Notes under the pieces: generated by a model
The model's database searches: none
The model's input: only the letters and a program-made list of their open reading frames with translations
Told to the model about the DNA's origin: nothing
Shown here: positions 6,412 to 23,207 of the stretch, piece after piece
Numbering within the stretch: the stretch's first letter is position 1
How the letters are laid out: each line of letters starts with the position of its first letter
NCBI RefSeq assembly: GCF_014192335.1
Contig: NZ_JACHXU010000005.1
Location: forward strand, 186,001 to 250,000
DNA: 64,000 nt
Direction: 5' to 3'
Source of the DNA: Aporhodopirellula rubra
GTDB taxonomy: Bacteria > Planctomycetota > Planctomycetia > Pirellulales > Pirellulaceae
Translations under genes and position numbers: made by a program

Positions 6412-9255
6412 ATGAGTTCGGACGCCCCGCGTCACGCGACTGATACGCAACGGTTCATCGCCAATCATCAAAAGCAACCAAATTCAATGCCAACTGTTTC
6501 CTCGTCGAAGCCACCCGTTCGCCCGGTCACCCCCAGACTACGAGTCGTGTTGCACTTGGTGTTGATTCTATTCGGCGTTTTGCTAGCCAACGGACTCTAT
6601 CTCACTTCGATTACGTGGCTGCAACACTTCACGGGCCGAATTTACGAAGACCACTTCTACCAACTGATGTTTTTGGTGCACCTCGCGTTGGGGTTGTTGC
6701 TGATCGTCCCGACGATCGGTTTTGGCCTGCTACACATGGTCCGCAGTCGCAAGCGACGAAACCGTCGGGCGGTAAAAATTGGTTACGCGTTGTTCGCCGT
6801 CGCAATCGCGATCTTAGTCACAGGACTGCTTCTAATGCGGGTGGGATCGATCGCGATCGTGGACCCCACGAGCCGGAGTTTTGTTTATTGGGCTCACCTG
6901 ATTGCCCCATTGGCCGTCATCTGGCTCTATTGGCTGCATCGCCTAGTCGGTCCTCGAATCAAGTGGAATGTCGGCAAGCGTGTTGTGCTCGCGATCACGG
7001 TCATCGTCGCTGCGATGGTCGCGTTCCAAGCGTCCGACCCTCGCATCAGCGGCAACAAAGCACCTTTGCAAGGCGAGAAATATTTTGAACCGTCACTCGC
7101 TCGCACCGCGACAGGGAAATTCATCGCTGCTGAAACGCTGATGAATGACGACTACTGCCTTCGCTGCCATGAGGATCTGTCGAATTCGGCGTTCCATAGC
7201 GCCCACCGATTGAGCAGTTTCAACAACCCTGCCTATCGAGCATCCGTCCGAGAAACGCGTCGAGTGTCGCTCGAACGCATGGGATCCGTCCAGGCCTCGC
7301 GTTGGTGTGCCGGTTGCCACGACCCCGTGCCGTTTTTCTCGGGTGAGTTCGATGACCCAAATTACGACGATGTCGAAAATCCGACCGCACACGCGGGGCT
7401 GACCTGCGTCGCCTGCCATTCAATTCAGTCCGTCAACAGCAACGTCGGCAACGCGGACTACACCATTGCCGAACCTCAACATTACCCGTTTGCCTACAGC
7501 GAAAACCCACTGCTGCAAGAATTGAATTCGTTGATGGTGAAAGCCAAACCGAGGTTTCACAAACACGAAATGTTGAAACCGTTTCATAAGGAAGCAGAAT
7601 TCTGCAGCGTATGCCATAAAGTTTCGCTCCCCGGTGAAGTAACCAACTACAAGGAATTTCTCCGCGGGCAGAATCACTACGACAGCTACTTACTGTCGGG
7701 CGTTTCGGGACACGGGGCGAGAAGTTTTTACTACCCCCCCAAAGCTCAAACCAATTGCAACGAGTGCCACATGCCCGCTCTCGCCACCGATGAATTCGGG
7801 GCGAAATACATGGACGAACTCGGTCGCCTTGGTGTTCACAGTCACTTTTTCCCTAGTGCCAATACGGCGCTCGCGTATTGGATGGGTGACACGGAAGGCG
7901 TTCAGAGACATCGCGATTACCTACAGGGAACCCTGCGTGTGGACCTCTTTGGACTGCGTAAGGGAGGTTCAGTGAACGGCGAACTCATCGCGCCCTTAGG
8001 CGATCGCACCAAAGTGGATCCAGGTGAAACCTATCTCATCGAGACCGTACTTCGGACGCTAACGCTCGGTCACCACTTCACTCAAGGAACAACGGACTCG
8101 AACGAGATATGGATCGAGTTAACGGCGACGCAGGCGGGCAATGTGATCGGACGCAGCGGTCACCGAGACGATCGCGAGGCCGTCGAACCCGACTCTCATT
8201 TCGTTAATACGTTCATGCTGGACCGAGATGGAAATCGAATCAATCGTCGTAACGCCCAGGATATCTTCACTCCTCTGTACAGCCACCAAATCCCGCCCGG
8301 GGCAGGCCAGACCGTTCACTACCGTTTGACCACACCTACCGATTCGACCGAACCGATCGAGATCTCTGCTAGATTGCTTTATCGCAAGTTTGACACGGAA
8401 TATCTCGACTACATTCGCCGCGATCGCGACCCGAAACGTGACAAACTGGAGCTCGGTCGCCCTGGAGATCCGAACGACTTACCAATCATCGAGATCGCCA
8501 GCGACAAACTCGTTCTGGATTTCGGCGACGTGAACAACGAACCAAAAACCAAGACCGAACCTGACGCATTTCCGCTTTGGCAACGATGGAACGACTACGG
8601 AATCGGGATGCTCCTAAAAGGCAAAGCCGAACTGAGGCAGGCCGCCGACGCGTTTCGTCACGTCGAGGAACTCGGCCGCTTCGACGGCCCGCTTAACCTC
8701 GCACGCGTGCAATTCACCGAAGGCGATCTCGATGGAGCGACCGAATCGCTTCATCGCGCTGCCACGATGGAACCACTCCCACCGTCATGGACACACAGCT
8801 GGCTCAGTGGGATTGTGAACCGACAGCAAGGGAATCTCGACGCCGCCGCTGAATCACTCCGAAACGTTCTCGAAACCAAAATCGTGGAACGTGGCTTTGA
8901 TTTTTCGCTCGATTACGAAGTGCGAAACCAACTCGGCTTAACGCTCGTAGATCTATTTCAGCGTGCGGAGGTCCAAGGCGACAGCGACGCCTCTGAGCGT
9001 TTGCTCGCCGAAGCCGAAATGCACTTTGAGAAAGTCTTGGAAGTCGATTCCGAAAACGTCACTGCCCACGCCAACCTCGCTGAAATCTTTGCTTGGAGCG
9101 GCGACACTGAAAAAGCGGAACATCACCGAATGCTTCACGCGAAATACAAACCCGATGATAACGCCGCCGAAGTCGCCATTCCTGCCGCGCGAAGACGATA
9201 TCCCGCGGCAAATCACGCGGCCGAAGATCTCGTGATCTACGATTTGACCCCGTGA
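6412..9255 (+). CDS. Membrane multihaem cytochrome c with C-terminal TPR region
   Basis: This 947-residue protein has about five membrane segments (roughly residues 43-66, 84-106, 123-142, 158-178 and 188-206), several with histidines as in b-type cytochromes. A periplasmic region follows with five CXXCH haem-c motifs at 249, 299, 332, 398 and 449, of the kind found in cytochrome c554-like multihaem proteins. The C-terminal third (about residue 725 onward) is helical and TPR-like. It probably moves electrons across or along the cytoplasmic membrane; donor and acceptor cannot be read from sequence. It sits between two VCBS/UnbV proteins and downstream of hypDE. An internal ATG at 6487 could be the real start; both precede the first membrane segment. 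Confidence 0.8.
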   Translation: MSSDAPRHATDTQRFIANHQKQPNSMPTVSSSKPPVRPVTPRLRVVLHLVLILFGVLLANGLYLTSITWLQHFTGRIYEDHFYQLMFLVHLALGLLLIVPTIGFGLLHMVRSRKRRNRRAVKIGYALFAVAIAILVTGLLLMRVGSIAIVDPTSRSFVYWAHLIAPLAVIWLYWLHRLVGPRIKWNVGKRVVLAITVIVAAMVAFQASDPRISGNKAPLQGEKYFEPSLARTATGKFIAAETLMNDDYCLRCHEDLSNSAFHSAHRLSSFNNPAYRASVRETRRVSLERMGSVQASRWCAGCHDPVPFFSGEFDDPNYDDVENPTAHAGLTCVACHSIQSVNSNVGNADYTIAEPQHYPFAYSENPLLQELNSLMVKAKPRFHKHEMLKPFHKEAEFCSVCHKVSLPGEVTNYKEFLRGQNHYDSYLLSGVSGHGARSFYYPPKAQTNCNECHMPALATDEFGAKYMDELGRLGVHSHFFPSANTALAYWMGDTEGVQRHRDYLQGTLRVDLFGLRKGGSVNGELIAPLGDRTKVDPGETYLIETVLRTLTLGHHFTQGTTDSNEIWIELTATQAGNVIGRSGHRDDREAVEPDSHFVNTFMLDRDGNRINRRNAQDIFTPLYSHQIPPGAGQTVHYRLTTPTDSTEPIEISARLLYRKFDTEYLDYIRRDRDPKRDKLELGRPGDPNDLPIIEIASDKLVLDFGDVNNEPKTKTEPDAFPLWQRWNDYGIGMLLKGKAELRQAADAFRHVEELGRFDGPLNLARVQFTEGDLDGATESLHRAATMEPLPPSWTHSWLSGIVNRQQGNLDAAAESLRNVLETKIVERGFDFSLDYEVRNQLGLTLVDLFQRAEVQGDSDASERLLAEAEMHFEKVLEVDSENVTAHANLAEIFAWSGDTEKAEHHRMLHAKYKPDDNAAEVAIPAARRRYPAANHAAEDLVIYDLTP

Positions 9256-9311
9256 TCCTCAACGTCACCTTGATCCAGACGCGCAAACGCACCCCCGATT
9301 GATCGAAACGC

Positions 9312-11201
9312 ATGACTAAGATGCCATCCTCTACCGAGTACGTCGACGAACACCCCGACGTTGAAAATGATGCGGTGATCGGCTCCGCGCTACGCGGGTC
9401 ACTGACCCTCTTTGCCGTTTTGGGATTACCCGTAATTGCGATTGTTCTTTTTCTGAAATTGAACCAAGAAACGCAACAGTCCATTGAAACGGAAGTCACG
9501 TTACCAGAGGTCCGTGAAATCGGTGACGCAACGATGCCATCGCTCGTGATGACCGAAGTCAGTCAACAGAGCGGAATCGATTTTACACATCAATCGGGGC
9601 GTTACGGCGAACGATTGCTACCAGAGACGATGGGAAGCGGTGTTGCGGTACTCGATTACAACAACGATGGGAACCAAGACCTCCTGTTAGTCAACTCTTG
9701 CTATTGGCCGTGGGATGAACGCCACGCGACACCCTCGCCATGCCAACTGCTGGAAGGAGACGGTAATTTTCACTTCAACGACGTCTCTGAACAAACGGGG
9801 CTCGACGTCACTCTCTATGGAATGGGCGTCGCGGTAGGTGACTATGACAACGACGGTGACAGCGATGTCTTCCTCTCCGCCGTTGGCACGAACCGCATGT
9901 ACCGAAACGACAACGGCGTCTTCCGCGACGTGACCGTCGAGACGGGTGTCGGGGGCGCCGAGGACGCGTGGAGCACGAGTTGCGGATTCTTTGACTACAA
10001 CAACGACGGCCTTTTGGATCTCTTCGTCTGCAATTATGTGTCATGGAGCAAAGAGAACGATCTCAGTCAGGATTTCACTCTCGATGGCGAAACACGCGCG
10101 TATGGGCCTCCCCGCGCGTTCGCGGGTTCCTTTTCATATCTGTACAAGAACCGAGGAGACGGTTCGTTCGAGGACGTCTCCGCGTCGGCTGGCATCCAAA
10201 TGCGCAATGACGACACCAACGTTCCGCTCGGCAAAGCGATGGGGCTGGCACCGGTTGACGTCAATCGCGACGGCTGGATGGACATCCTGGTCGCAAACGA
10301 TACCGTCCGAAATTTCTTATTCGAAAACAACAAGGACGGAACGTTTTCCGAAATCGGACGGTTGTCGGGAATTGCATTCGACCGTAGCACCGGCAACGCA
10401 CGCGGCGCGATGGGAATCGACACAGCCGCCTTCCGTGACGACGGAACACTCGCAATCGGAATCGGCAACTTCGCCAACGAAGCGAGTGCTCTTTACATGG
10501 CCCGTCCCGAACGCAGCCAATTCATCGACGCGGCGATGTACACCGGATTTGGGCCTCCGACGCGAAAGGGGCTCACGTTCGGGCTGTTCTTTTTTGACGT
10601 CGATTTAGACGGCCGACTCGATGTGCTCGGTGCGAACGGACACCTCGAAGAGGAAATCGCAAAAACGCAAGCGACGCAGCGTTATGAACAGTCGCCGCAA
10701 CTGTTTTGGAACGCGGGCCGCGAAGCCAAAACGGAATTGGTCCTCGTGGAGGAATCCAACGTCGGCGAGGCGTTCTACCAACCCATCGTCGGCCGAGGTG
10801 CCGCCTTCGCCGACTTTGACAGTGATGGCGACGAAGATGTCGTCATTGCAACGAGCCATTCACGTCCGGCTGTCTTTCGTAACGACCAACAGACCCAACA
10901 TCACTTCCTTCGGGTCAAACTAGAGGGAACTCAATGCAACCGTGACGCGATCGGCGCAATCGCAGAATTGTCCCTCGAAAATCGCACCCTCACACGGACG
11001 GTCATGCCAACACGAAGTTACCTCAGTCAGTGCGAAAAAACACTAACGTTTGGGCTCGGTGCGTCGCCGGCCGTCGACTCAATCGTCGTCACCTGGCCTG
11101 GTGGCGTTTCCGAACGGTTCGATGTCAATGCCATCGATCAAACGATCACACTCATCCAAGGCACGGGAACGGACGCGACTGCCGACGACGTGGAGCCGTA
11201 G
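9312..11201 (+). CDS. CRTAC1-like FG-GAP/VCBS protein with ASPIC/UnbV domain
   Basis: The 629-residue protein has a membrane anchor near residues 28-48 and then several FG-GAP/VCBS repeats over about 110-516 with clear calcium-loop motifs (DYNNDGNQD, DYDNDGDSD, DYNNDGLLD, DVNRDGWMD, DFDSDGDED). A C-terminal ASPIC/UnbV domain follows (about 523-616, with VTWPGGVSE). This is the common bacterial CRTAC1-like architecture, expected to be an extracytoplasmic beta-propeller. It starts 56 bases after the cytochrome gene and is probably co-transcribed with it. The substrate or partner is unknown; a structural partner for the cytochrome is possible but is inference. Confidence 0.85.
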   Translation: MTKMPSSTEYVDEHPDVENDAVIGSALRGSLTLFAVLGLPVIAIVLFLKLNQETQQSIETEVTLPEVREIGDATMPSLVMTEVSQQSGIDFTHQSGRYGERLLPETMGSGVAVLDYNNDGNQDLLLVNSCYWPWDERHATPSPCQLLEGDGNFHFNDVSEQTGLDVTLYGMGVAVGDYDNDGDSDVFLSAVGTNRMYRNDNGVFRDVTVETGVGGAEDAWSTSCGFFDYNNDGLLDLFVCNYVSWSKENDLSQDFTLDGETRAYGPPRAFAGSFSYLYKNRGDGSFEDVSASAGIQMRNDDTNVPLGKAMGLAPVDVNRDGWMDILVANDTVRNFLFENNKDGTFSEIGRLSGIAFDRSTGNARGAMGIDTAAFRDDGTLAIGIGNFANEASALYMARPERSQFIDAAMYTGFGPPTRKGLTFGLFFFDVDLDGRLDVLGANGHLEEEIAKTQATQRYEQSPQLFWNAGREAKTELVLVEESNVGEAFYQPIVGRGAAFADFDSDGDEDVVIATSHSRPAVFRNDQQTQHHFLRVKLEGTQCNRDAIGAIAELSLENRTLTRTVMPTRSYLSQCEKTLTFGLGASPAVDSIVVTWPGGVSERFDVNAIDQTITLIQGTGTDATADDVEP

Positions 11202-11213
11202 TGCAAAATCGTC

Positions 11214-12179
11214 CTACAGGCGAGTCTTGTACTCTTTCGAATCGCGATCAAATTGAAACACCTGCTTCTGCTTGGGATCCGCGACGAACAAGGAATCTTC
11301 CGTAAGGGCGATTCCAACGGGTCCAACCAACGGTTCGCCTTCGTACCACTTTTCACTTTTCCCGTCGGCGGTGAATGTCCAAATGCATTTGCCGTATCCG
11401 TCCGTTACGTAACCGTGGTCTCCCGCCCAACAGATTCCGTTGGGGTATTGAAAAGGACGACCAGTAACAATTTCTTCGACTTCCTTCGTCTCGACGTTGA
11501 TACGAACGATCGCAACTGCATCAGGAGTCACCGCCCACAGATTGCCGTCGGCGTCGAAGGCTAACCCTCGCGCGTTCACCCGGGCGACCAACTCTGGTTT
11601 GCCCCCGTCGATCGGCAGGCGGAATGTTGCACGCTTTTCGGCATCGCCGACGTAGAGCATTTTGCCGGCGGCATCGATCGCGAGTGCCATCGGGATCCCG
11701 ATGTGACCATCGGTCAATCCGATCGGCTCAGAATTCACGCCATCGATTTTGTAGACTTCTCGTGTTGCCGAATCGCCCACCAAGACACCTCCACCTGGAT
11801 GCATCACGATGCACCGTGGCCGATTCATGGGCTTGCGAAGAAAACGACTGCCACGGCAAAACAGTTCGCGCGAACTGCCCGCCATCCACACTCCCGGCAA
11901 ATCGAGATCCACGCAGTAGATATCGTCGCCGTCGACCGCAACGGCCAACGGGTATGCGGGGTCCGTTTTCTCCTGTTCCTGCGGTGCCTCAGCCTCCGCT
12001 TTTTGAGCAGCACCGCTCTCTTCGGAAACGACCTTCTCCTGTGCGTTCAGGTTGGCCCCCGAAGAAATGAATGCTGTGATCCCAATCACGAAAAAGACTG
12101 CCATCGTGAAACGGTTCGCGATTGCCCGATCCAAGAACCCCAAGTCGCGGCACGTTGGAGTAGTAAAAAACTTCGTCAT
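11214..12179 (-). CDS. Secreted NHL/SMP-30-like beta-propeller protein
   Basis: The start at 12179 gives 321 residues with an N-terminal hydrophobic stretch (AVFFVIGITAFISSG, then AQ) that looks like a signal peptide. A Glu-rich linker follows, then propeller-type repeats such as GIPMALAIDAAGKMLYVGD, GLAFDADGNLWAV and PNGICWAGDHGYVTDGYG. These resemble SMP-30/gluconolactonase and NHL blades; catalytic metal ligands were not established. The frame extends to 12272, but the extra 31 residues are poor coding, and an inner ATG at 12104 sits closer to the signal-like segment. The gene converges on the CRTAC1-like gene with 12 bases between stops. Function is unknown beyond a periplasmic or surface propeller. 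Confidence 0.7.
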   Translation of the reverse strand: MTKFFTTPTCRDLGFLDRAIANRFTMAVFFVIGITAFISSGANLNAQEKVVSEESGAAQKAEAEAPQEQEKTDPAYPLAVAVDGDDIYCVDLDLPGVWMAGSSRELFCRGSRFLRKPMNRPRCIVMHPGGGVLVGDSATREVYKIDGVNSEPIGLTDGHIGIPMALAIDAAGKMLYVGDAEKRATFRLPIDGGKPELVARVNARGLAFDADGNLWAVTPDAVAIVRINVETKEVEEIVTGRPFQYPNGICWAGDHGYVTDGYGKCIWTFTADGKSEKWYEGEPLVGPVGIALTEDSLFVADPKQKQVFQFDRDSKEYKTRL

Positions 12180-12420
12180 TTCAGGAACTGCAGTAAAAAT
12201 ACAAAAGAAGATGCTTAGGAACGAGGTTGGTGCGACGTCACCGGCTCGAATCGATCCGGCCTTCGCGACCAACGGCTATAATAACCTCCCCGCGGTCGAC
12301 AGGGTGCTCCACAAGGCAACATCTGAAATTTACGCATCGATTGGTGCCACACATCAAGCCACGCAGCGCAAAGAACGCCTCCAAAACACGAAAGCTTTTG
12401 ACTCATCAAAGCACCATCAC

Positions 12421-13962
12421 CTAGACGGTCTTGTCGCTCGGCGCGGTATGTCGATAAAGATTCCGCTTGGCGGGGTCCATCAGCCCCACACGATTGTAAG
12501 GTTCGACGCGTTCGCGAATCCAAGCGATCGCAGTACAAATTTCGTCATCGGAGATCACACCATGATCGTGCCTGCGTCGCAGTTCTCGAACGCGAGCAGA
12601 CACCTGGCCGACACATTCGACGAGCTCGAGATTTCTAACGCTGAGGAAACCGTCACTCTCATCGCGCTCCGCCGTTGTCACGACAACGAAGTAGGTCATG
12701 GTTGCAGTGGCAAATAACGAAAAATCGAACATCGCCGAATAGCACATAGAAACGAGTTCGTCGATCCACAAAATTTCAGCATGTACCTGCGTCCCGTAAT
12801 CCAACAGACTTTCATGCGTGGGGAACTCAACGCGACCTTTGCACTGCGAGAACATCTCCGCAATCTGTTCAACCGCCGCCAGCGTATGGGCGATCCCCGT
12901 ACTGTGCAGCGGATCGACGAAACCGACCGCTGAAGGTAGAGCAAGCCACCCCTCGCCGGCCCCAGGCATTCGCAAGTGTTGAAGACGCTCCTTGGCAGCG
13001 AGACGGGAGGGCGTGACCAATTGCGCTTTCGCGAACTGAGTTTCTAACGAAGGATACTTTCGCAGGATCCGACGCCAATTCGATTCGGCATTTTCCTCGT
13101 TGATCGCAACTCCGTCCGCTTGCGTTTGATCGAAAACGACACCGCAGCTCGTCACCCCGTTGTCAAATTTGAGCTGCCATACCCAACCTTCCTCGATCAA
13201 ATGATGGACTGCCGCATAATGACACACGTAGGGATGCGCATGATGCTCACCTCCGCACCCAATATAAACGTCGTTCCAATCCTTTACGTCGCAAAAGTGG
13301 CCAAAAATCGCTCCCGTGTTGGTTTTCAATTCACCACTCATATCACGTTGATGGGCAACGTCGGCGAGCACTGCACCCGCACCGCTGGCATCAATAATGA
13401 ACGAACTGGTCAACTCCAATGGACCTCCAACATCATCATGACCAGCCCCTCCCTGACACGTGCCCCGCACTAACCAGCAATCATTCCCCTTCGTGATTTT
13501 TTCAATCGAAAAACCTTCAATCAGCTTTACGTCCGCGTTGGCTAACTGGCGAGCGATGTAATGATCAACCGTCGATCGCAACCAATGAGTATCCGAGATA
13601 GAGTCCGACGTACTCGCGGCCACCAACAGTTCTGAAGCATGGTTCCCGCAAGGCTCAAAAGCGGTTTCACGAGCGTGGTGGAAATAACTGAACCCGCGTT
13701 TCAAACCAACCGTCACCTCGGGCGCAAGGCTTTGTGCCGTTCCGTACGCACTCAGCGGAGCCAACCAATCCAATTCCAACCGAGCTGCAAGGCGTTTCAA
13801 AATCCGGTCGGCCAAAGGAGTCGACGATTCACCAATGGCGAATCGTGGGTGTGTCACCTTGTCGACCACGCAAACTCGATAGCCCAGTTTGCGGAGGGAA
13901 AGCGCCGTCAAACAACCACCGAAACCCGAGCCAATAATCAAAACGTCTGAATCAATCTTCAT
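12421..13962 (-). CDS. FAD-dependent oxidoreductase, flavin-halogenase-like
   Basis: The 513-residue flavoprotein has an N-terminal Rossmann motif (IIGSGFGG), the GESSTPLAD segment typical of flavin-dependent halogenases and relatives, and a LKRGFSYF segment near where those enzymes carry the catalytic lysine. The GWVWQLKF segment occupies the place of their WxWxIP motif, but the IP pair is absent. It may therefore be a halogenase or a related oxidase or reductase acting on a carrier-bound or peptide substrate. I place the start at the ATG at 13962, which shares its A with the stop of the radical SAM gene (TGATG); a TTG one codon earlier is less likely. It is the last gene of a three-gene unit. 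Confidence 0.75.
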   Translation of the reverse strand: MKIDSDVLIIGSGFGGCLTALSLRKLGYRVCVVDKVTHPRFAIGESSTPLADRILKRLAARLELDWLAPLSAYGTAQSLAPEVTVGLKRGFSYFHHARETAFEPCGNHASELLVAASTSDSISDTHWLRSTVDHYIARQLANADVKLIEGFSIEKITKGNDCWLVRGTCQGGAGHDDVGGPLELTSSFIIDASGAGAVLADVAHQRDMSGELKTNTGAIFGHFCDVKDWNDVYIGCGGEHHAHPYVCHYAAVHHLIEEGWVWQLKFDNGVTSCGVVFDQTQADGVAINEENAESNWRRILRKYPSLETQFAKAQLVTPSRLAAKERLQHLRMPGAGEGWLALPSAVGFVDPLHSTGIAHTLAAVEQIAEMFSQCKGRVEFPTHESLLDYGTQVHAEILWIDELVSMCYSAMFDFSLFATATMTYFVVVTTAERDESDGFLSVRNLELVECVGQVSARVRELRRRHDHGVISDDEICTAIAWIRERVEPYNRVGLMDPAKRNLYRHTAPSDKTV

Positions 13963-14936
13963 CAAACCGGCTCGACCTCACCGCAGTGACACTGCACTGG
14001 CGACGGCACCGTCTGTGTCAGATTCATCTGGCCAATTCGCTCAATTCGGGCCGCCATGCATTCATTGCAGGATGAAAACTTTTCTGCATCCCAGAGATCC
14101 GCAAAAACACGATATGTCTTTGGCCCTGCGAGTGACTGCTCAAGAACAGATTCCAGAGACCGCAATTGGGGAGGAGAATAATCGCCACGCTCAGCCAATA
14201 ACTCAATGGCTCCGTTTCCCGGCCGGGTCGGGATCACTGCAACGCACGAGACCCCGCATCCGACTGCGAATTCAACCGATTTCACTGCCCATTCGATACC
14301 TTCTCTCTCATTGAGATACGGAGGCTTTAGCAAAACGAAAGCGCGAACAGAAATATCGTTTACACAAAGAAACTCAGTCGCGTGTCGAAAACCGTCCAAC
14401 GTCATCTGCTTGTTGAGCAAAGGCAAAACTTCGGGGTGAACCGTTTCCAACCCCATCGCAATCTCCAACTTTCCATCGAGCCGATCTTTAAACTCAATGC
14501 ATTGCTGATTGCAGAGGCTCGGATGATTTTCGACGACGACCGTTTCGAAACGTCTGCAGAGCGTCGCAATTTCGATTCGATCTCGACGAGGAATCGCCTT
14601 AGCGTCAAAGAAATTACCACTGTTGTAGAGTTTCAGCCGTTTCGCATCGGGCATCCGCTCGAGCGCGTATCGCATCTGCTCGACGATATCACCATCCCGC
14701 ACCGGCACGTCGAGCGTATTCTTCCATAAGTCACACATCAGACAACGATAAGGGCACTCCCTGTTCGTCAGAAAGATGGTCGCGACATCAACCACGTTGC
14801 CGTATTCAGCCAACTCGGGCTCAACTAAAAACGCATAAGGCTTGGTCGGCGAGACGATATTTTTTTGCCCGCGAAGCCGAAGAATCTCTTCGGTCGTTAA
14901 TGTGGTTCGACCCATTTCGCGTGTGTTGAAAGCCAT
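13962..14936 (-). CDS. Radical SAM protein, resembling the RaSEA/Elp3-like group
   Basis: The 324-residue protein carries the radical SAM cluster motif CPYRCLMC (C61, C65, C68) that binds the [4Fe-4S] used to cleave S-adenosylmethionine. The segments KLYNSGNFFD, AMGLETVHPEV and LLKPPYLNEREGIEW resemble the TIGR01210 group (archaeosine-synthase radical SAM subunit and bacterial relatives). Two further cysteine clusters lie near the C-terminus (SCNECMA and CHCGE), possibly an auxiliary metal site. It lies 24 bases after the asparagine-synthetase-like gene and overlaps the flavoprotein gene by one base, so the three are probably one operon. The family is clear; the substrate is not, and tRNA modification or small-molecule biosynthesis are both open. 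Confidence 0.82.
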   Translation of the reverse strand: MAFNTREMGRTTLTTEEILRLRGQKNIVSPTKPYAFLVEPELAEYGNVVDVATIFLTNRECPYRCLMCDLWKNTLDVPVRDGDIVEQMRYALERMPDAKRLKLYNSGNFFDAKAIPRRDRIEIATLCRRFETVVVENHPSLCNQQCIEFKDRLDGKLEIAMGLETVHPEVLPLLNKQMTLDGFRHATEFLCVNDISVRAFVLLKPPYLNEREGIEWAVKSVEFAVGCGVSCVAVIPTRPGNGAIELLAERGDYSPPQLRSLESVLEQSLAGPKTYRVFADLWDAEKFSSCNECMAARIERIGQMNLTQTVPSPVQCHCGEVEPV

Positions 14937-14960
14937 CGATTGCCGAGCGTTTACAAACCG

Positions 14961-16304
14961 CTAGTTGCTGAAAACTTCCGCGAACGCCTGCCGATACGCC
15001 AACGGAGAATCAGGAAACACCGCTGCGAAATCGGACTCGGACGTTGCCCCGCGTTGGAAGCGATTTTTCTCGAACACGGGCATCATCATTCCGGTAATCG
15101 CATGAACACCGGCACGCGTCACATTGCCTTTGAGTGAATAAAGTTTTTCGTGATCCCAATCCGTCAACTCGATAAACGGAATTTTCTCCGCAACTTCAAT
15201 TACCTCGGATGTGGCGAATGGACTGAAACCTTCGAAGCCATACTTGGCTGCCGTGGCATAGGTGCGAACGTGGCCTCGGCTTTGTCCACCCGAATACGTC
15301 TGCGAATGTTTGATTTTATCCACGCCCCATCCTTCGTGATAGAAAAACGGGTTCCCTAAGACGCTTCGGATCGTCAGCTCGGGATTCTCTTCAATCGGGT
15401 AATCACGCAAATTTTCATCACCGCCATCACCATCGAGCAAGTACTTCCATTCCGGATATCGATGCCGAACTTCCTTCAATACCGCAATCGCCATTGTCGC
15501 CGCTTGAACATCGAGAGGCTTGTAGTCTTCGATCGTGCGGATCGCATCTTTGTAATCGAGACTCGATGCATCCACCTGAATCGGCTCCAACAAATAATCG
15601 ATGTCTAACGTTTTTAGAAACTCAGACGCCTGATCCAAATCACTTCCGTTCTCATTCACAGATAACGTAAACGCTTTAAGCCGCTGTGCGTTCTGACCTC
15701 GCTTCAGCAGCGAGTGATACGCGAGCGTCAATACCGCCCCGCTGTCGACACCGCCTGAAAATAGAACACCGATCGGTTCTTTCTCAGGAATCGAATCGAT
15801 CCACGAATCAATTTCGTTCGCCAGAGCGCCAATATACGCTTTACCGATCGCGTCGATATCCGCGGGTAACTCGTTGGCGTGCTGCGTCAAAAAACGCGTG
15901 TAGACAGGATTCGGATCAGGACACCCCACGAGCGACAGTTCGGTCACATAGTGGGCCGGAACCATTCGAGTGTACGACGGATGAAACTGATCGGCGATTC
16001 CTTCCTTCTCCAAATGATCGCGGATCTCATCCATTCGTTCGGCAATAATCAAGACAGGGCCGGCCGCCTGCTTGGCGAGGAAGTAACGCATCGGTCGGCC
16101 AATCGAACGAGCCAAACGCACGATCTTTCCGTTTTTGTGCACTAACGCGAACTGCCCATCGATCTCGCGCACCTTCTCAGGCTCACCTGTCCCGACCCGT
16201 TCGATCGCCTCATCAATTGCCATGTTGAACAGAACATTCGAATCGGGGTCCAACAAATTAACCAGGCGTTCAACGGTCGCGAACTTTTGATTTGACATCG
16301 ACAT
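14961..16304 (-). CDS. Asparagine-synthetase-like PP-loop enzyme without the glutaminase cysteine
   Basis: The 447-residue protein has a degenerate N-terminal GATase-II-like domain (REIDGQFALVHKNGK, then GRPMRYF) followed by the AsnB-type synthetase domain. The ATP-pyrophosphatase P-loop SGGVDS is at residues 183-188, with DGDGGDENL further on. True class B asparagine synthetases start Met-Cys with the catalytic cysteine at position 2; this one starts MSMSNQ, so glutamine hydrolysis is not expected. It may form an amide or lactam from another amine or from ammonia, as do beta-lactam and carbapenam synthetases of the same superfamily. It is the first gene of the minus-strand unit with the radical SAM and flavoprotein genes. 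The product is unknown. Confidence 0.8.
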   Translation of the reverse strand: MSMSNQKFATVERLVNLLDPDSNVLFNMAIDEAIERVGTGEPEKVREIDGQFALVHKNGKIVRLARSIGRPMRYFLAKQAAGPVLIIAERMDEIRDHLEKEGIADQFHPSYTRMVPAHYVTELSLVGCPDPNPVYTRFLTQHANELPADIDAIGKAYIGALANEIDSWIDSIPEKEPIGVLFSGGVDSGAVLTLAYHSLLKRGQNAQRLKAFTLSVNENGSDLDQASEFLKTLDIDYLLEPIQVDASSLDYKDAIRTIEDYKPLDVQAATMAIAVLKEVRHRYPEWKYLLDGDGGDENLRDYPIEENPELTIRSVLGNPFFYHEGWGVDKIKHSQTYSGGQSRGHVRTYATAAKYGFEGFSPFATSEVIEVAEKIPFIELTDWDHEKLYSLKGNVTRAGVHAITGMMMPVFEKNRFQRGATSESDFAAVFPDSPLAYRQAFAEVFSN

Positions 16305-16576
16305 TCTCTAGGTGACGGACTTCTAAAACTCACAACGAAATAGGGGGCGATGCAATCGCGTGCGTACTCCCCGTCGAGCGAAAACTCATTCTCTCATGAT
16401 GCCGCCCAACTCGCAACGTACGGACGCATGCTGATTCATGCGATTCCGCCGCAGCCCCCGCCTTCACGAGATCCGTCTCGACCGTGCTCGATGATGACCA
16501 TGCTATGATAATGTGACTTGTTTCGTCGCTTTCCCTTCGTCACACCCACCTTCCTCCATTGCTGCACTGCATTACG

Positions 16577-17944
16577 ATGATTCGCTACCTTTTGCCGTTC
16601 TTGGTGATTGCACCTGCGTTTGTCTACGCGGAGCCTCCCTTTCGCATCGAAATTGTTGACGCAGAGAACGGTTGGCCAGTCCCCCTCGTTCAACTCGAAA
16701 CGAACCATCACGTTCGGTTTGTCTCAGACAATGCAGGCGTCATCGCATTCGATCTCCCTGAGTTGATGAACACAGAAACGTGGTTCTCAATCAGTGGCCA
16801 TGGTTACGGTGTCAAGCCCGATGGATTCGGCTACATGGGGGTCCGATTAACGCCTCAACCTGGAAAAAGCCACGTCATCGAAGTCAAACGCCAATTGCCC
16901 GCACAACGCCTGGGCCGCGTGACGGGCACCGGGCTCTTTGCCGAATCTCAAAAATGTGGCGAGCATCTCGACTGGACCGATCAAAACATACTCGGCTGCG
17001 ACAGCGTTCAGAACGCAACATGGGGCGACCGAAAATTCTGGCTTTGGGGAGACACGACGCTCGCCGGATACCCGCTGGGCCGATACCACACGACCGGAGC
17101 GACCACGTCACCTCGCCCCTTCTTGAAACTCGTGCCACCGATCGAGCTTCGTTACAACTACTTCACCGATCCCCAGAACATCCCACGCAACATCGCCCAA
17201 ATGCCTGGCCAGGGCCCCACTTGGCTTTTCGGACTGGTCAACCTTACCGATCGACACGGACGCGAGCGTCTCGGTGCGACTTATTCAAAGATCGAGGGAA
17301 TGTTAACGGAGTACGAGAAAGGGCTCTGTTCTTGGAATCAAGAGCTCCAACAATTTGAACATTTCAAGACGATTTGGACGAAAGACGCCGAGCATCCGCT
17401 GGCCCCGCTGATGCCTCATGGACACGCGATCCACTACACCGATCCAGACCATCAGAATTGGATCCTATTTGGTGCCCCTTTTCCGAGACTGCGGTGCCGA
17501 GCGACGTTTGAAGATTGGGCATCACCGGGGAAATGGGAAACCATCGACGCGAACAATGCCGTTGAAGTGCACGGTTCCAAGCAAACCATTACCCCGCATC
17601 GAGGCACCATTGCGTGGAACGAATACCGTAATAAATGGATTACCATCTTCACGCAGAAAGGCGGCAGACCATCTGAACTCGGTGAAATTTGGTATGCCGA
17701 GGCAGAGTCTCCGTTTGGCCCCTGGCGAAACGCGATCCCGATCGTCACACACGACAATTACACTTTCTACAATCCGCAAATTCACAGCGACATGGTCACC
17801 AAGGGGTCACCAGTACTACTTTTCGAAGGTACGTTTACCGCAACGTTCGCGAAAAACGCGACAAAGACACCTCGCTACGACTACAACCAAATCCTTTACC
17901 GACTGGACCTCGACAAACCGCCGTTTTCAAAAACGGATCTTTGA
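16577..17944 (+). CDS. Secreted DUF4185-like protein, glycosidase-type beta-propeller
   Basis: The ATG at 16577 is followed by a clear signal peptide (IRYLLPFLVIAPAFVYA). The frame opens six codons earlier at a TTG, which I reject. The mature protein has an N-terminal beta region of about 90 residues (a carboxypeptidase-regulatory-like fold is possible) and then a DUF4185-like domain with the motifs FWLWGDTTLAGYP, YHTTGATTS, TYSKIEG and GTIAWNEYRNKWI. Such domains resemble the five-bladed propeller of glycoside hydrolase clans, but enzymatic activity is unproven. It is monocistronic, divergent from the biosynthetic unit, and converges on the BSP peptidase gene. Length is 455 residues. Confidence 0.65.
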   Translation: MIRYLLPFLVIAPAFVYAEPPFRIEIVDAENGWPVPLVQLETNHHVRFVSDNAGVIAFDLPELMNTETWFSISGHGYGVKPDGFGYMGVRLTPQPGKSHVIEVKRQLPAQRLGRVTGTGLFAESQKCGEHLDWTDQNILGCDSVQNATWGDRKFWLWGDTTLAGYPLGRYHTTGATTSPRPFLKLVPPIELRYNYFTDPQNIPRNIAQMPGQGPTWLFGLVNLTDRHGRERLGATYSKIEGMLTEYEKGLCSWNQELQQFEHFKTIWTKDAEHPLAPLMPHGHAIHYTDPDHQNWILFGAPFPRLRCRATFEDWASPGKWETIDANNAVEVHGSKQTITPHRGTIAWNEYRNKWITIFTQKGGRPSELGEIWYAEAESPFGPWRNAIPIVTHDNYTFYNPQIHSDMVTKGSPVLLFEGTFTATFAKNATKTPRYDYNQILYRLDLDKPPFSKTDL

Positions 17945-19419: not shown

Positions 19420-22400
19420 TCAACGTATGCTGGTTCCGGACTGGTCGATCAAGAGCGAGTTTGAAACATCATTTCCAAAGTCGTCGTGGCGATCGAGCAC
19501 CCAAACGACCTGCTTAGTATCCGGAATAACTTCAACGAGAATCGGCTGCCCTGCTCCCGCATGGCAGTTCCCAAGAACGACGTTGCCGTTTTCCAACAAT
19601 TCCAAGGTGGTGACCCAGCCAAGACGAATGCCGGGTAGATCATCCTGGTGAAGTTGCCACACGATTTCTTTTTCCGGAGTGACCTCGATCACGCTATGGC
19701 CATTGCCAGTAGAGATCCAAGTGTTTCCATTGGGATGACGCATGGCGCAGAACAAACGGTTCCCAAACGCATCAGGACCGTGGCCGCCCTTGGGCTCCTT
19801 ACCGAACATGGGAACGGCAAAGTCCCAAACAACGTCTCCCGATCCAGAATCATATTCTCGAACCATCCCATCGGCTTCATGAGCAACTAAGTAGTTGCCG
19901 TTCTCCAGTTGCCGCACTAACCGCGTGTCGCTGTGCGAATCCGAATGATCCAGAGTAAGCTTCGTTTCGCGGAGGAGCTTACCCTGCCGGTCCACTTCAA
20001 TGATCCGACCAGCGCCCGATTCCGCAATCATCACGTTGCCGTTGTTAAGTAATTGAGCGGAATGAATTTCGAAATGCCTGTCGTCGGGGCGATTTTGCGT
20101 TGAGGCGTCATAACGCCACACGACCTGCCGCGTCGAAGGATTAATCTCGACCACGCGTGTTGGCCCATCAAGCGTGAGAACATTCCCGTTCTCGAGCAGT
20201 TGCAGATCGTGAATTCCGCTCCATGGCATTTCCCATGCGACTTCTCCGGTTCGCTCAACGATCGCCAAACGACCGTTCCCTCCAAGGAGAACCCGATGTG
20301 ACGCAGGTGGCTTTTCCGATATCGCCGCAGTGGTTTCCGATTGCGGTACAGCTCCCACTTTCCATTCGAGTATTCCGCCCGATACGCCGGAACGAAGCTG
20401 AACTTCCACTCGCAACGCATCGGTTGAAACGGATGCGAACGAAAGTGTGTCCCATCCATCTTTTCGTGCCGCCTTTGGTTCGCCGATGAGCACAGGCTTC
20501 CAAATTTGTCCGTCTCGGTAAAGTAATCTCCAAGATTGTGGAACGCGACATTCCCCCACTCCTGTATCGTCGAACCAGTAGAGAGAAACACTCGAAACAT
20601 CACGCGGTTCTGGAAAGTCATATTGCACCCACTCACGTGTTCCCTTGTGATCCCACCACGTAAATCGCGGAATGCTGTGATCGCCAGAGGAAACCGGGAC
20701 TAACCCGTCATCAATCGCGGCATGCGAATCCATATGAAAACGATGCGATGACGTAATGACGAAATCTGACTCGCGTGGCTTCGGCAACGCCTTCCACTCA
20801 TTCGCCTGCTCGTCCGCTCCGATCACAGGAAACGCCGAGATCCGAAGTCGAGCCGCCCCCATTGGGACCAAGGAAACGGACTCACTGGGTTGGTCGCTGC
20901 GAACCGGACTGTCTTGCAATACCGCACACAATCCATGGTTGTCGAGTGTCCATTCCGGAATGACCTTTGCCGTCGTTGACATCGTGATCGGAGCGGACTC
21001 CTGAGTGAATGGGAAGTCATCAGCGGGCCACGGATGTCGATGCACTTCGAAACCAGATGCAGGATCATCTTGATCAAGAATCAATCCGTAGTTCCACTTG
21101 GTACTTGGGTGAATCTCATACGACGGCCACTGCTTTTGATCAACGCCTGGCTGCCAGCTAGAATCGCCGATCGCGGTCTCTTTGCTGTCTTTGCGATCGT
21201 ACCGCTCACCGATTTTGAGTGAAAAGGTGAGCGGCCCAAAATTCACACTGACACTATTGTGGTTTTTCGCCCAGGTTTGCAGCGACGTTTGCATCGGCAG
21301 GTCGAGCGTGACGGTGTCTCCATCGTGCCACTCTCGTTCAATACGAACGTATTTCCCGTGTGCGTTTGCCAATTGCTCCAAGTCACCAGCGACGTCGAGC
21401 GACGCCACTTCACACCACTTGGGAACACGCATGTAGAGCGGGAACGTCACCGGTTCATCGGTTTGAATGGTCAACGCAATCTTCTCATCAAACGGATAGC
21501 GAGTTGTTTCGCGTATCTGCACCTGCTTTCCATCACCAACTTTTGCATTAACTTCAGACGCACTGTACATGGCGGCGCACAGACCGTTGTCCGGGGTCGC
21601 CATCCAAAGATGCTTGGCGAAATAAGGCCAACCATGCGAATGGTTGTGTTGACAGCAGCGAGAACTAAATGGATTCATCACCAAGAACGGCCCGCTGTTG
21701 TCAATTCCCGGCGCGTGATTGGCCGCGTCACTGAGAACCATGTTGGGGGCAGTGAGGTAACGCAACGACTTGAAATCGGGCATGACCGCCGCGGGATAGC
21801 TATTGAACGCCACGTTTTCACAATGATCAGCCCAGAAGGGATCACCGGTAATTTGGAGCATGATCTCGTCTGACAACATCTGTTCCACGAAACCACATGT
21901 CTCGGTCGCTTGACGCGGGTCGTCAAAGCCGACTCGGCAGTTCTCGTCACCACCAAACATGCCACCAGGCACTTGGCCAAAACGCTTCCGGACCTCATGA
22001 AAATTCGCATAAGCCGCCTGCAGATGCCCACTATCGCGTGATTGCAAATAATACGTTGCGGGCTCGCGAAAACATTCCGCAATATTGACGTTGTGCCAAT
22101 TCGGTAGGTCATTCGGCAAAGTCCAATTCGCCGTGCAACGATGCAGCTTCTCCGCAACCTCTAACAACTCCTCATCTCCGGTTCGGTTGTAGAGCCAATA
22201 GATGGATTGCAGATTGTCCCCACCTCTCATTTTCTGCCAGTAACCGGTCAACATCTCGTCGTCGGGAACAGTTGCTTGATACCGGAAGTATCGCGTCATC
22301 AATTCCAAAACACGGTTGTCCGCCTCACCTCGACTTTCACCGTACTCGTAATAGGACTGCAAACAGTAAAGCATCACCATGTTGGCCCAATAGTCGCGAG

Positions 22401-22932
22401 TTCCATCTCCAAGCCGTTGGTCGGGTCCAAAATCACCGTCCGCACGCTGGCTCGCTAAAACACCCTCGATCCAAAATTCACTTTCGGCGATCATGTCAGG
22501 GTCGTCCATCAAGTAGGCCAGCTCGATGTACCCTTTGAGCCAATAGGGCAGCTCCTCCCAGCCGTATTTCCCCTTTCCATCGCGGCTTAACCAAGCATTG
22601 CCTTCTTTGGTCAGCCAGGCACTGATCTCGCCTAAGTGACCGGTCAATCCGTCACGCTGCCGACGGAGCATTTCGGCGAGCCATCCCTGTGGGGTCACGG
22701 CGCCGGGCGGCAACGCGATCAAGCGACTGGGTACCAACGGCAATCGGTTGGAAACGTAGTTCCCATTGCGGGCTGAGTCGTCTTGCGATTCCAACGCCGG
22801 TGCGACGACGATCGACACGCGATTTCTCGGTTCTGATCGCGCACCGGTTTCGCCGCACATTCCAACACTCTGGTTGGACATCCAAAACAAAATAACAGTG
22901 AGCAATACGATACAAACGCGGACGAATAGCAT
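19420..22932 (-). CDS. Large secreted GH127-type protein fused to discoidin-like and propeller domains
   Basis: The ATG at 22932 gives 1170 residues with a hydrophobic signal (LFVRVCIVLLTVILFW). The first about 700 residues match glycoside hydrolase family 127 (DUF1680, beta-L-arabinofuranosidase type). Zinc-cysteine catalytic residues are recognisable as E330 in GGDENC, E344 and C346 in ATETCGF, and C426-C427 in SRCCQ, with spacing close to the characterised enzyme. A discoidin-like segment follows (VQYDFPEPRDVSSVSLYWF). A C-terminal six-bladed-type propeller repeats motifs such as LLENGNVLTLDG, LLNNGNVMIAESG and QLENGNYLVAHE. It probably trims arabinose-type or related sugars from polysaccharide at the cell surface. 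The frame stays open 77 codons upstream to 23163, but that part looks non-coding. Confidence 0.85.
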   Translation of the reverse strand: MLFVRVCIVLLTVILFWMSNQSVGMCGETGARSEPRNRVSIVVAPALESQDDSARNGNYVSNRLPLVPSRLIALPPGAVTPQGWLAEMLRRQRDGLTGHLGEISAWLTKEGNAWLSRDGKGKYGWEELPYWLKGYIELAYLMDDPDMIAESEFWIEGVLASQRADGDFGPDQRLGDGTRDYWANMVMLYCLQSYYEYGESRGEADNRVLELMTRYFRYQATVPDDEMLTGYWQKMRGGDNLQSIYWLYNRTGDEELLEVAEKLHRCTANWTLPNDLPNWHNVNIAECFREPATYYLQSRDSGHLQAAYANFHEVRKRFGQVPGGMFGGDENCRVGFDDPRQATETCGFVEQMLSDEIMLQITGDPFWADHCENVAFNSYPAAVMPDFKSLRYLTAPNMVLSDAANHAPGIDNSGPFLVMNPFSSRCCQHNHSHGWPYFAKHLWMATPDNGLCAAMYSASEVNAKVGDGKQVQIRETTRYPFDEKIALTIQTDEPVTFPLYMRVPKWCEVASLDVAGDLEQLANAHGKYVRIEREWHDGDTVTLDLPMQTSLQTWAKNHNSVSVNFGPLTFSLKIGERYDRKDSKETAIGDSSWQPGVDQKQWPSYEIHPSTKWNYGLILDQDDPASGFEVHRHPWPADDFPFTQESAPITMSTTAKVIPEWTLDNHGLCAVLQDSPVRSDQPSESVSLVPMGAARLRISAFPVIGADEQANEWKALPKPRESDFVITSSHRFHMDSHAAIDDGLVPVSSGDHSIPRFTWWDHKGTREWVQYDFPEPRDVSSVSLYWFDDTGVGECRVPQSWRLLYRDGQIWKPVLIGEPKAARKDGWDTLSFASVSTDALRVEVQLRSGVSGGILEWKVGAVPQSETTAAISEKPPASHRVLLGGNGRLAIVERTGEVAWEMPWSGIHDLQLLENGNVLTLDGPTRVVEINPSTRQVVWRYDASTQNRPDDRHFEIHSAQLLNNGNVMIAESGAGRIIEVDRQGKLLRETKLTLDHSDSHSDTRLVRQLENGNYLVAHEADGMVREYDSGSGDVVWDFAVPMFGKEPKGGHGPDAFGNRLFCAMRHPNGNTWISTGNGHSVIEVTPEKEIVWQLHQDDLPGIRLGWVTTLELLENGNVVLGNCHAGAGQPILVEVIPDTKQVVWVLDRHDDFGNDVSNSLLIDQSGTSIR

Positions 22933-23207
22933 TAGAGAAACAGTTGAGTTGAAACGGGTTGGGGGAGTACCGATCGTTAGGAAGTCTGCATTGTCGCACT
23001 TCATCGAGCCATGCGATCTTCCGCAAAAACCATGCATTTTTGCGCACCTAGAACAATCTGCCTCAACCTCTCTATCGTGCCTACGGTATTGCGATGTGTC
23101 GCACGATATATCAGTTTGTATGACACAGCACGGGAGATTCGTCGCACCGTTCTGCTGACTCAAACTCCTCTTTCAAATCAGACTTCGTTCATATTCGGAG
23201 ACGTATC

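Follow-up and report, generated by a model that had tools for sequence, protein, structure and literature searches.

In the genome of the planctomycete Aporhodopirellula rubra (8.5 Mb, 75 contigs; RefSeq assembly GCF_014192335.1), three genes in a 64,000-nucleotide stretch (positions 186,001 to 250,000 of contig NZ_JACHXU010000005.1, here called the window and numbered from its first letter) encode an asparagine synthetase B (AsnB)-like ATP-dependent ligase, a radical S-adenosylmethionine (SAM) enzyme akin to RaSEA and a halogenase-like flavoprotein. We found that these genes form a functional unit, present or absent together in most genomes examined, whether adjacent or not. From the families of the enzymes, we tentatively propose that they constitute a self-sufficient, three-step accessory pathway, which would turn common metabolites into a halogenated or oxidised aromatic amide. 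All three genes lie on the minus strand with the ligase gene first, followed after 24 bases by the radical SAM gene and then, at a spacing of -1 base (a one-base overlap), by the flavoprotein gene; the second spacing becomes -4 bases if the flavoprotein starts at a TTG instead of an ATG. The spacings of 24 and -1 bases agree with the original prediction, which was made from the letters of the window. In Pfam and NCBIfam, the three products match Asn_synthase (E = 4e-14), the RaSEA model (E = 3e-31) and Trp_halogenase (E = 3e-14), respectively.

The three genes are present or absent together

Co-occurrence was scored in 60 genomes, comprising that of A. rubra and those of relatives, with limits for a strong match that we set at E < 1e-90 for the ligase and E < 1e-37 for the radical SAM enzyme and the flavoprotein. 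By these limits, the ligase was found in 29 genomes and each of the other two proteins in 30. All three genes were present in 28 genomes and none in 29, while a part of the set occurred in 3, all of them drafts: one without the flavoprotein (G040), one without the ligase, in which the radical SAM and flavoprotein genes lie on a 5.4 kb contig (G026), and one with the flavoprotein only (G021). The layout of the 28 full sets varied. All three genes were adjacent in 14 genomes, only the radical SAM and flavoprotein genes in 8 (including G020, where the ligase gene is at a contig edge) and only the ligase and radical SAM genes in 5 (including G028, where the pair is 0.9 kb apart), and in one genome (G022) all were on different contigs. 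G107 and G128 each consist of a single contig, on which about 240 and 310 kb, respectively, separate the flavoprotein gene from the other two. Within one planctomycete family, 4 of 7 genomes hold all three genes and 3 hold none, and two genera (g49 and g51) each include one genome with the full set and another with none. Across a phylum-wide sample of 179 genomes, the ligase was detected in only 5: the window's own genome and the four of that family with the full set.

A tblastn search with the ligase against one genome per species matched at least 507 stretches, among which may be ordinary asparagine synthetases, and the best 80 of these loci (identity of at least 58%) were taken as the locus set. 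The order ligase-radical SAM-flavoprotein within 400 bases was seen in 25 of the 80; the remaining loci comprised 13 with the ligase and radical SAM genes only, 5 with all three genes otherwise arranged, 1 with the ligase and flavoprotein genes, and 36 with the ligase gene alone in the stretch examined. When the genomes of 32 of these 36 were searched in full, a radical SAM gene was recovered elsewhere in 29 and a flavoprotein gene in 31; the radical SAM match in G241 is limited to 92 of 320 positions, and some of the matches to the flavoprotein are partial. The genome of L108 has neither partner, and those of L144, L148 and L132 (the ligase-flavoprotein locus) are without the radical SAM gene. 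The pairwise distances of the three proteins also correlate (Mantel r 0.60-0.63, n = 42, reached by 0 of 999 permutations), which shared descent alone could explain.

Because presence is nearly always all-or-none in the 60 genomes and co-occurrence persists when the genes are unlinked, these data indicate that the three genes are one functional unit. The expectation that they would be kept together in related genomes is thus borne out, and even dispersed genes still co-occur. That unrelated genes merely happen to be neighbours in one genus, as the 36 of 80 loci with the ligase gene alone might suggest, is highly improbable given the persistence of unlinked co-occurrence (radical SAM enzyme in 29 and flavoprotein in 31 of 32 genomes) and an identical gene order in other phyla.

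Spread across phyla

The 80 loci belong mostly to Planctomycetota (one labelled Phycisphaerae), with others from Roseithermus (Rhodothermota), from Rhodohalobacter and other Balneolaceae, and from a few metagenome-assembled genomes (MAGs) labelled Bacteroidetes or Pyrinomonadaceae, which may be misbinned. Roseithermus has the same gene order as the window, and Rhodohalobacter (Balneolota, L175) keeps this order with one divergent open reading frame (ORF) between the ligase and radical SAM genes. Among the matches listed, the closest named relative of the ligase is that of Aporhodopirellula aestuarii (85%). In a ligase tree of 51 rows (quick method, midpoint root, several weak backbone forks), the rows from Rhodothermota and Balneolota are nested among planctomycete rows, and the set was probably acquired by these two phyla through transfer. 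Taken together, this placement, the all-or-none pattern and the correlated distances make the set look like an accessory trait that has been lost as a whole and has probably also moved as a whole. No viral relative of the ligase was confirmed, and the plasmid records searched held no ligase relative, two Streptomyces radical SAM enzymes and, in 14 records, distant halogenases. Separately, the ligase frames of L019 and L021, otherwise well conserved and from drafts, each carry one in-frame stop (TAA and TAG), reflecting sequencing error or decay.

An AsnB-like ligase without Cys2

The ligase gene (16304-14961, minus strand, ATG start) encodes a 447-aa protein, its glutaminase-like domain being shortened and Cys-less. 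Its N-terminus, MSMSNQKF, has no Cys2, and an upstream start restoring Met-Cys is ruled out by an in-frame TAG two codons before the ATG (16308-16310), which upholds the absence of Cys2 noted originally. Relatives likewise show no recurrent Cys in the first 12 alignment columns, and a Cys within the first three residues was seen in 3 of 105 mechanically started ORFs. The ATP loop had also been read correctly: the PP-loop is SGGVDS in the window, and SGGxDS is found in 103 of 105 rows, the other two being gaps. By motif and fold, the protein is an AsnB-type PP-loop ligase, scoring 44 bits against the AsnB model TIGR01536 (cut-off 267). In an alignment of 23 rows, SGGxDSG, DGDGGDEN, GGQSRGHxR and KxRFQ are kept (the window's protein carries SGGVDS, DGDGGDEN and KxRFQ) and the glutaminase-like N-terminal part is shortened. 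A profile of the family retrieved only asparagine synthetases from the PDB, and weakly (best E = 1e-4). At the column of Escherichia coli AsnB Glu348, which we take to be a conserved catalytic Glu shared with beta-lactam synthetase, all 105 rows have Asp (D293). Together, these features suggest that the ligase probably activates a carboxylate as an acyl-AMP, with which an amine other than ammonia from glutamine would react.

The original prediction had likened the protein to beta-lactam-forming enzymes. Its structural model (predicted local distance difference test (pLDDT) score 80, below 50 for residues 295-342) is as close to AsnB (Z 23.2, 3.5 Å, 356 aligned residues) as to beta-lactam synthetase (Z 23.5, 3.6 Å, 354 aligned), so that a special tie to the latter is not supported. 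A pathway in which the ligase forms a beta-lactam or another small lactam, as in clavulanate or carbapenem synthesis, followed by radical and halogenase tailoring, draws on the Cys-less fold (Z 23.5) but is very improbable: AsnB itself fits equally (Z 23.2), the presumably catalytic Glu348 of AsnB is replaced by Asp in 105 of 105 rows, and the recurrent neighbours seen include no known partner of those pathways.

A radical SAM enzyme with affinity to RaSEA

The radical SAM gene (14936-13962, minus strand, ATG start) encodes 324 aa, with the CX3CX2C motif at residues 61-68. Residues 46-318 scored 109 bits against the RaSEA model TIGR01210, below its cut-off of 212, and the general Pfam radical SAM model gave only E = 0.004, also below its cut-off. 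When five members were scanned against NCBIfam, RaSEA was matched at 54-110 bits in each (in L078 and L082 along only part of the model); four of the five matched no other family at E ≤ 0.001, and the window's own enzyme had one more weak match (E = 0.02). The control, E. coli YhcC, matched 27 NCBIfam families, with RaSEA at 39 bits. Since four of five members match nothing else and YhcC matches 27 families, we regard the affinity to RaSEA as specific, as judged by these profiles, at a score under the cut-off.

The Cys residues of CX3CX2C are present in 69, 69 and 70 of 71 rows, the rest being gaps. A C-terminal Cys motif is found in 58-61 of 71 rows at three of its positions and is missing in a same-genus subgroup (L078, L085, L094 and L096). 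Invariant charged residues (E39, E41, K102, E136, H138, E158, E164, K176, R198, R238 and D280) suggest that the substrate is polar. No sequence relative was found in the PDB. The structural model (pLDDT 94.5) gave tied matches to queuine lyase (Z 16.8, 3.5 Å, 219 aligned), Elp3 (16.4) and biotin synthase (16.3), and Foldseek placed Elp3 first. As a separate observation, a bacterial radical SAM enzyme nearer to RaSEA (173 bits, cut-off 212) is encoded on plasmid pFRL5 of Streptomyces sp. F8 (L193:11893-13008), among genes annotated as a P450, a serine hydroxymethyltransferase, a GT9 glycosyltransferase, a carbamoyltransferase and heptose-type sugar enzymes, possibly a natural-product cluster.

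Given this affinity, the set might modify a nucleobase or tRNA, which we consider unlikely and rank second among the readings. A nucleobase carboxylate or 7-deazaguanine would receive an amino acid from the ligase, much as ArcS adds lysine; the radical SAM enzyme would then cut a bond in the adduct, and the flavoenzyme would oxidise the base. RaSEA is the family match of the radical SAM enzyme, queuine lyase ranks first (tied with Elp3 and biotin synthase) in the fold comparison, and both RaSEA and queuine lyase break C-N bonds. An ArcS-made lysine adduct in tRNA is converted by RaSEA, as PMC11298593 describes. However, the score of the window's enzyme is far below the RaSEA cut-off (109 against 212 bits), no Rfam riboswitch was detected in 20 ligase loci or in window positions 12000-16800, and QueC is uninformative on a deazaguanine link, as all 37 genomes searched for it have it whether or not they carry the set (in G024 the best match is weaker). 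Moreover, the nearest flavoproteins are halogenases of what we take to be phenolic small molecules.

A flavoprotein closest to PltM and CtcP

The flavoprotein gene (12421-13962, minus strand) encodes 513 aa from an ATG at 13962, or 514 aa from a TTG at 13965. Its family profile matched PltM (E = 3e-78, 267 bits) and the tetracycline 7-halogenase CtcP (E = 2e-73, 251 bits), the next structure scoring 136 bits. Lys89, present in 59 of 59 rows, aligns with the GxK of PltM, whose Lys we take to be catalytic. GESSTP and DPLHSTG are mostly retained, as is WxW (W in 58 and 57 of 59 rows), which mostly ends as WxWxLRF (L in 54 and R in 40 of 59). On these grounds, halogenation of a phenolic ring seems the likeliest activity, and monooxygenation is possible.

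The NCBIfam matches of the flavoprotein include the maturases QhpG (72 bits, cut-off 240), GoxB and LodB, and the ligase is weakly like macrolactam cyclases (18 bits) and lasso-peptide cyclases (11 bits). These matches would fit a role in maturing a protein or peptide whose gene lies elsewhere: the radical SAM enzyme and the flavoenzyme would alter side chains and the ligase would make an isopeptide bond, somewhat as in QhpD/QhpG. We rank this reading third, a little less probable again than nucleobase or tRNA modification. Against it, the flavoprotein matches PltM (E = 1e-36) far more closely than it does the structure of peptidyl Trp dihydroxylase (E = 2e-5), and no neighbouring protein recurs across lineages. 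A search of the 2.5 kb around 121 loci gave 8045 short ORFs, with 55 families in at least four loci; 48 of these mostly overlie frames of at least 200 aa, and the other 7, of 4 or 5 members each, come from two locus sets. Hence, no precursor ORF common to several lineages was found within 2.5 kb in the 121 loci, and the nearby precursor peptide envisaged originally is not supported. Nor was a fourth gene found: each of the 121 neighbour families is seen at a distance of up to 1 kb from the set in at most 6 of the 80 loci.

A proposed three-step pathway

We tentatively favour a small-metabolite pathway, ahead of nucleobase or tRNA modification and protein maturation. In the first step, the AsnB-like enzyme would adenylate a carboxylate with ATP and, with its glutaminase lost, join it to an amine group on a second substrate and not to ammonia from glutamine; the product would be an amide or lactam. 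In the second step, the RaSEA-like enzyme would act on the polar intermediate through a 5'-deoxyadenosyl radical, most likely cutting or rearranging a C-N or C-C bond. In the third step, the PltM/CtcP-like flavoenzyme would halogenate or, with its altered WxWx motif, oxygenate an electron-rich aromatic ring. With no other gene regularly found nearby, ordinary metabolites are the probable substrates, for example amino acids (tyrosine being a plausible aromatic one), and the product is probably a small aromatic amide. The compact modification pathway predicted originally is retained in part: one pathway of three enzymes kept together is supported, and the beta-lactam link and the nearby peptide precursor are not.

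Several observations count against the unit or this chemistry. At E ≤ 0.001, the ligase, radical SAM enzyme and flavoprotein are matched in 32, 30 and 58 of the 60 genomes, so that the all-or-none counts depend on limits chosen by us; the surplus consists of weak matches to other synthetases and distant flavoproteins. In G040, G026, G021, G238, G256, G258 and G268, mostly drafts or MAGs, one or two genes of the set went undetected. Conservation is much stronger in the ligase (median identity 63%) than in the flavoprotein (37%), an unusual pattern in a pathway of secondary metabolism, and no transporter or regulator recurs across lineages in the 80 loci. Finally, the flavoprotein deviates from WxWxIP in the last two positions, where Ile is present in 4 and Pro in 5 of the 59 rows, leaving halogenation uncertain.

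A variant, less probable than either tRNA modification or protein maturation, is that the radical SAM enzyme stands in for the glutaminase: the ligase would join the acyl-adenylate to an amino acid such as lysine through the amine of the latter, and C-N cleavage by the radical SAM enzyme would free a primary amide, which would then be halogenated. If so, an amino acid would serve as a traceless ammonia donor outside tRNA archaeosine synthesis, and a radical enzyme replacing the lost glutaminase would be a new route to amides. For the three-step pathway proposed here, strict co-inheritance, occurrence in several phyla and dispersal without loss of members suggest that it is of importance to its hosts, and such a dispersed set would often escape genome mining that looks for gene clusters alone. 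The set joins AsnB-like ligases, RaSEA-like radical SAM enzymes and phenol-type halogenases and is small enough to reconstitute.

Surroundings of the set

Upstream of the three genes, an intergenic region (16305-16558, no strand assigned) is likely the promoter region, with a divergent ORF from 16559; no Rfam match was found in it even at E ≤ 5. At gathering score, Rfam gave nothing in window positions 12000-16800 or in the 20 ligase loci except one tRNA-Ser, upstream in L008 and absent in the other 19. A riboswitch or structured RNA was accordingly rejected, as was a defence system, there being no PADLOC match.

Recurring neighbours are confined to small groups of loci and comprise an rlmC-like gene, ribBA, phosphoglucomutase, an AMP-ligase/carrier/aminotransferase protein, a helix-turn-helix protein and an NHL-repeat protein. 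In six planctomycete loci (L161:6241-9744, L146, L151, L159, L164 and L174), a protein of about 1140 aa with AMP-ligase, carrier and class I/II aminotransferase domains is encoded divergently beside the ligase gene. In L111, L116, L121, L125 and L130, the ligase gene is apart from the radical SAM and flavoprotein genes and has an RNA m5U-methyltransferase-like gene on one side and ribBA on the other. In the window, an SMP-30/NHL-repeat protein gene (11214-12272) comes after the flavoprotein gene in the same orientation, with relatives at the same place in L060 and L061. Positions 6412-11201 (plus strand) encode first a protein that weakly matches multihaem cytochromes and TPR and then an ASPIC/UnbV FG-GAP protein, and positions 19420-23163 hold one frame of 1247 aa that combines a GH127-type glycosidase, an F5/F8-like part and a PQQ/arylsulfotransferase-like repeat part.

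Comparison with known systems

No description of the three-enzyme set was found in titles and abstract beginnings among the open-access papers listed, in agreement, at that level, with the original statement that no described pathway has this exact set. Halogenated planctomycete compounds include a chlorinated fatty acid in R. baltica, alichondrichlorin and 3,5-dibromo-p-anisic acid (PMC12078418), none of which is tied to the present gene set in section 9 of that article. The Rhodopirellula enzyme presented in PMC12871659 is a vanadium haloperoxidase.

The ligase shares the PP-loop SGGxDS and the overall fold (Z 19-23.5) with asparagine synthetase B, beta-lactam synthetase, carbapenam synthetase and TsnB9. 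Beta-lactam and carbapenam synthetases presumably likewise have no working glutaminase. Different from this group, the ligase has a shorter N-terminal domain, Asp in place of Glu348 and its own motifs DGDGGDEN and GGQSRG, scores far under the AsnB cut-off and is nearly always found alongside the same two enzymes. The flavoprotein resembles PltM and CtcP in its profile match over about 410 residues, GESSTP, the GxK lysine and DPLHSTG, whereas it has WxWxL(R)F instead of WxWxIP and regular AsnB-like and RaSEA-like partners. QhpD and QhpG, which we take to mature a subunit of quinohemoprotein amine dehydrogenase, are likewise a radical SAM enzyme and a flavoenzyme acting on one substrate; in contrast, the present set has no recurring target protein gene nearby, a flavoprotein nearer to PltM and an additional AsnB-like ligase.

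RaSEA and ArcS form a complex, in which ArcS attaches lysine to preQ0 in tRNA and RaSEA turns the adduct into archaeosine, according to PMC11298593. The radical SAM enzyme of the set shares with RaSEA the family match, CX3CX2C and possibly also a partner that attaches an amino acid, but it has about half the cut-off score, occurs in bacteria, has an AsnB-like partner instead of ArcS and comes with no evidence of an archaeosine-type product. In the ammosamide pathway, as PMC12715798 sets it out, the flavin-dependent halogenase Amm3 and the AsnB-like Amm20, for which amidation is proposed, act on one small aromatic molecule. That pathway is peptide-derived and has more genes, and its Amm10, similar to only some parts of radical SAM enzymes, lacks their Cys motif; its pairing of a halogenase with an AsnB-like enzyme nevertheless provides a precedent for two of the three steps proposed here.

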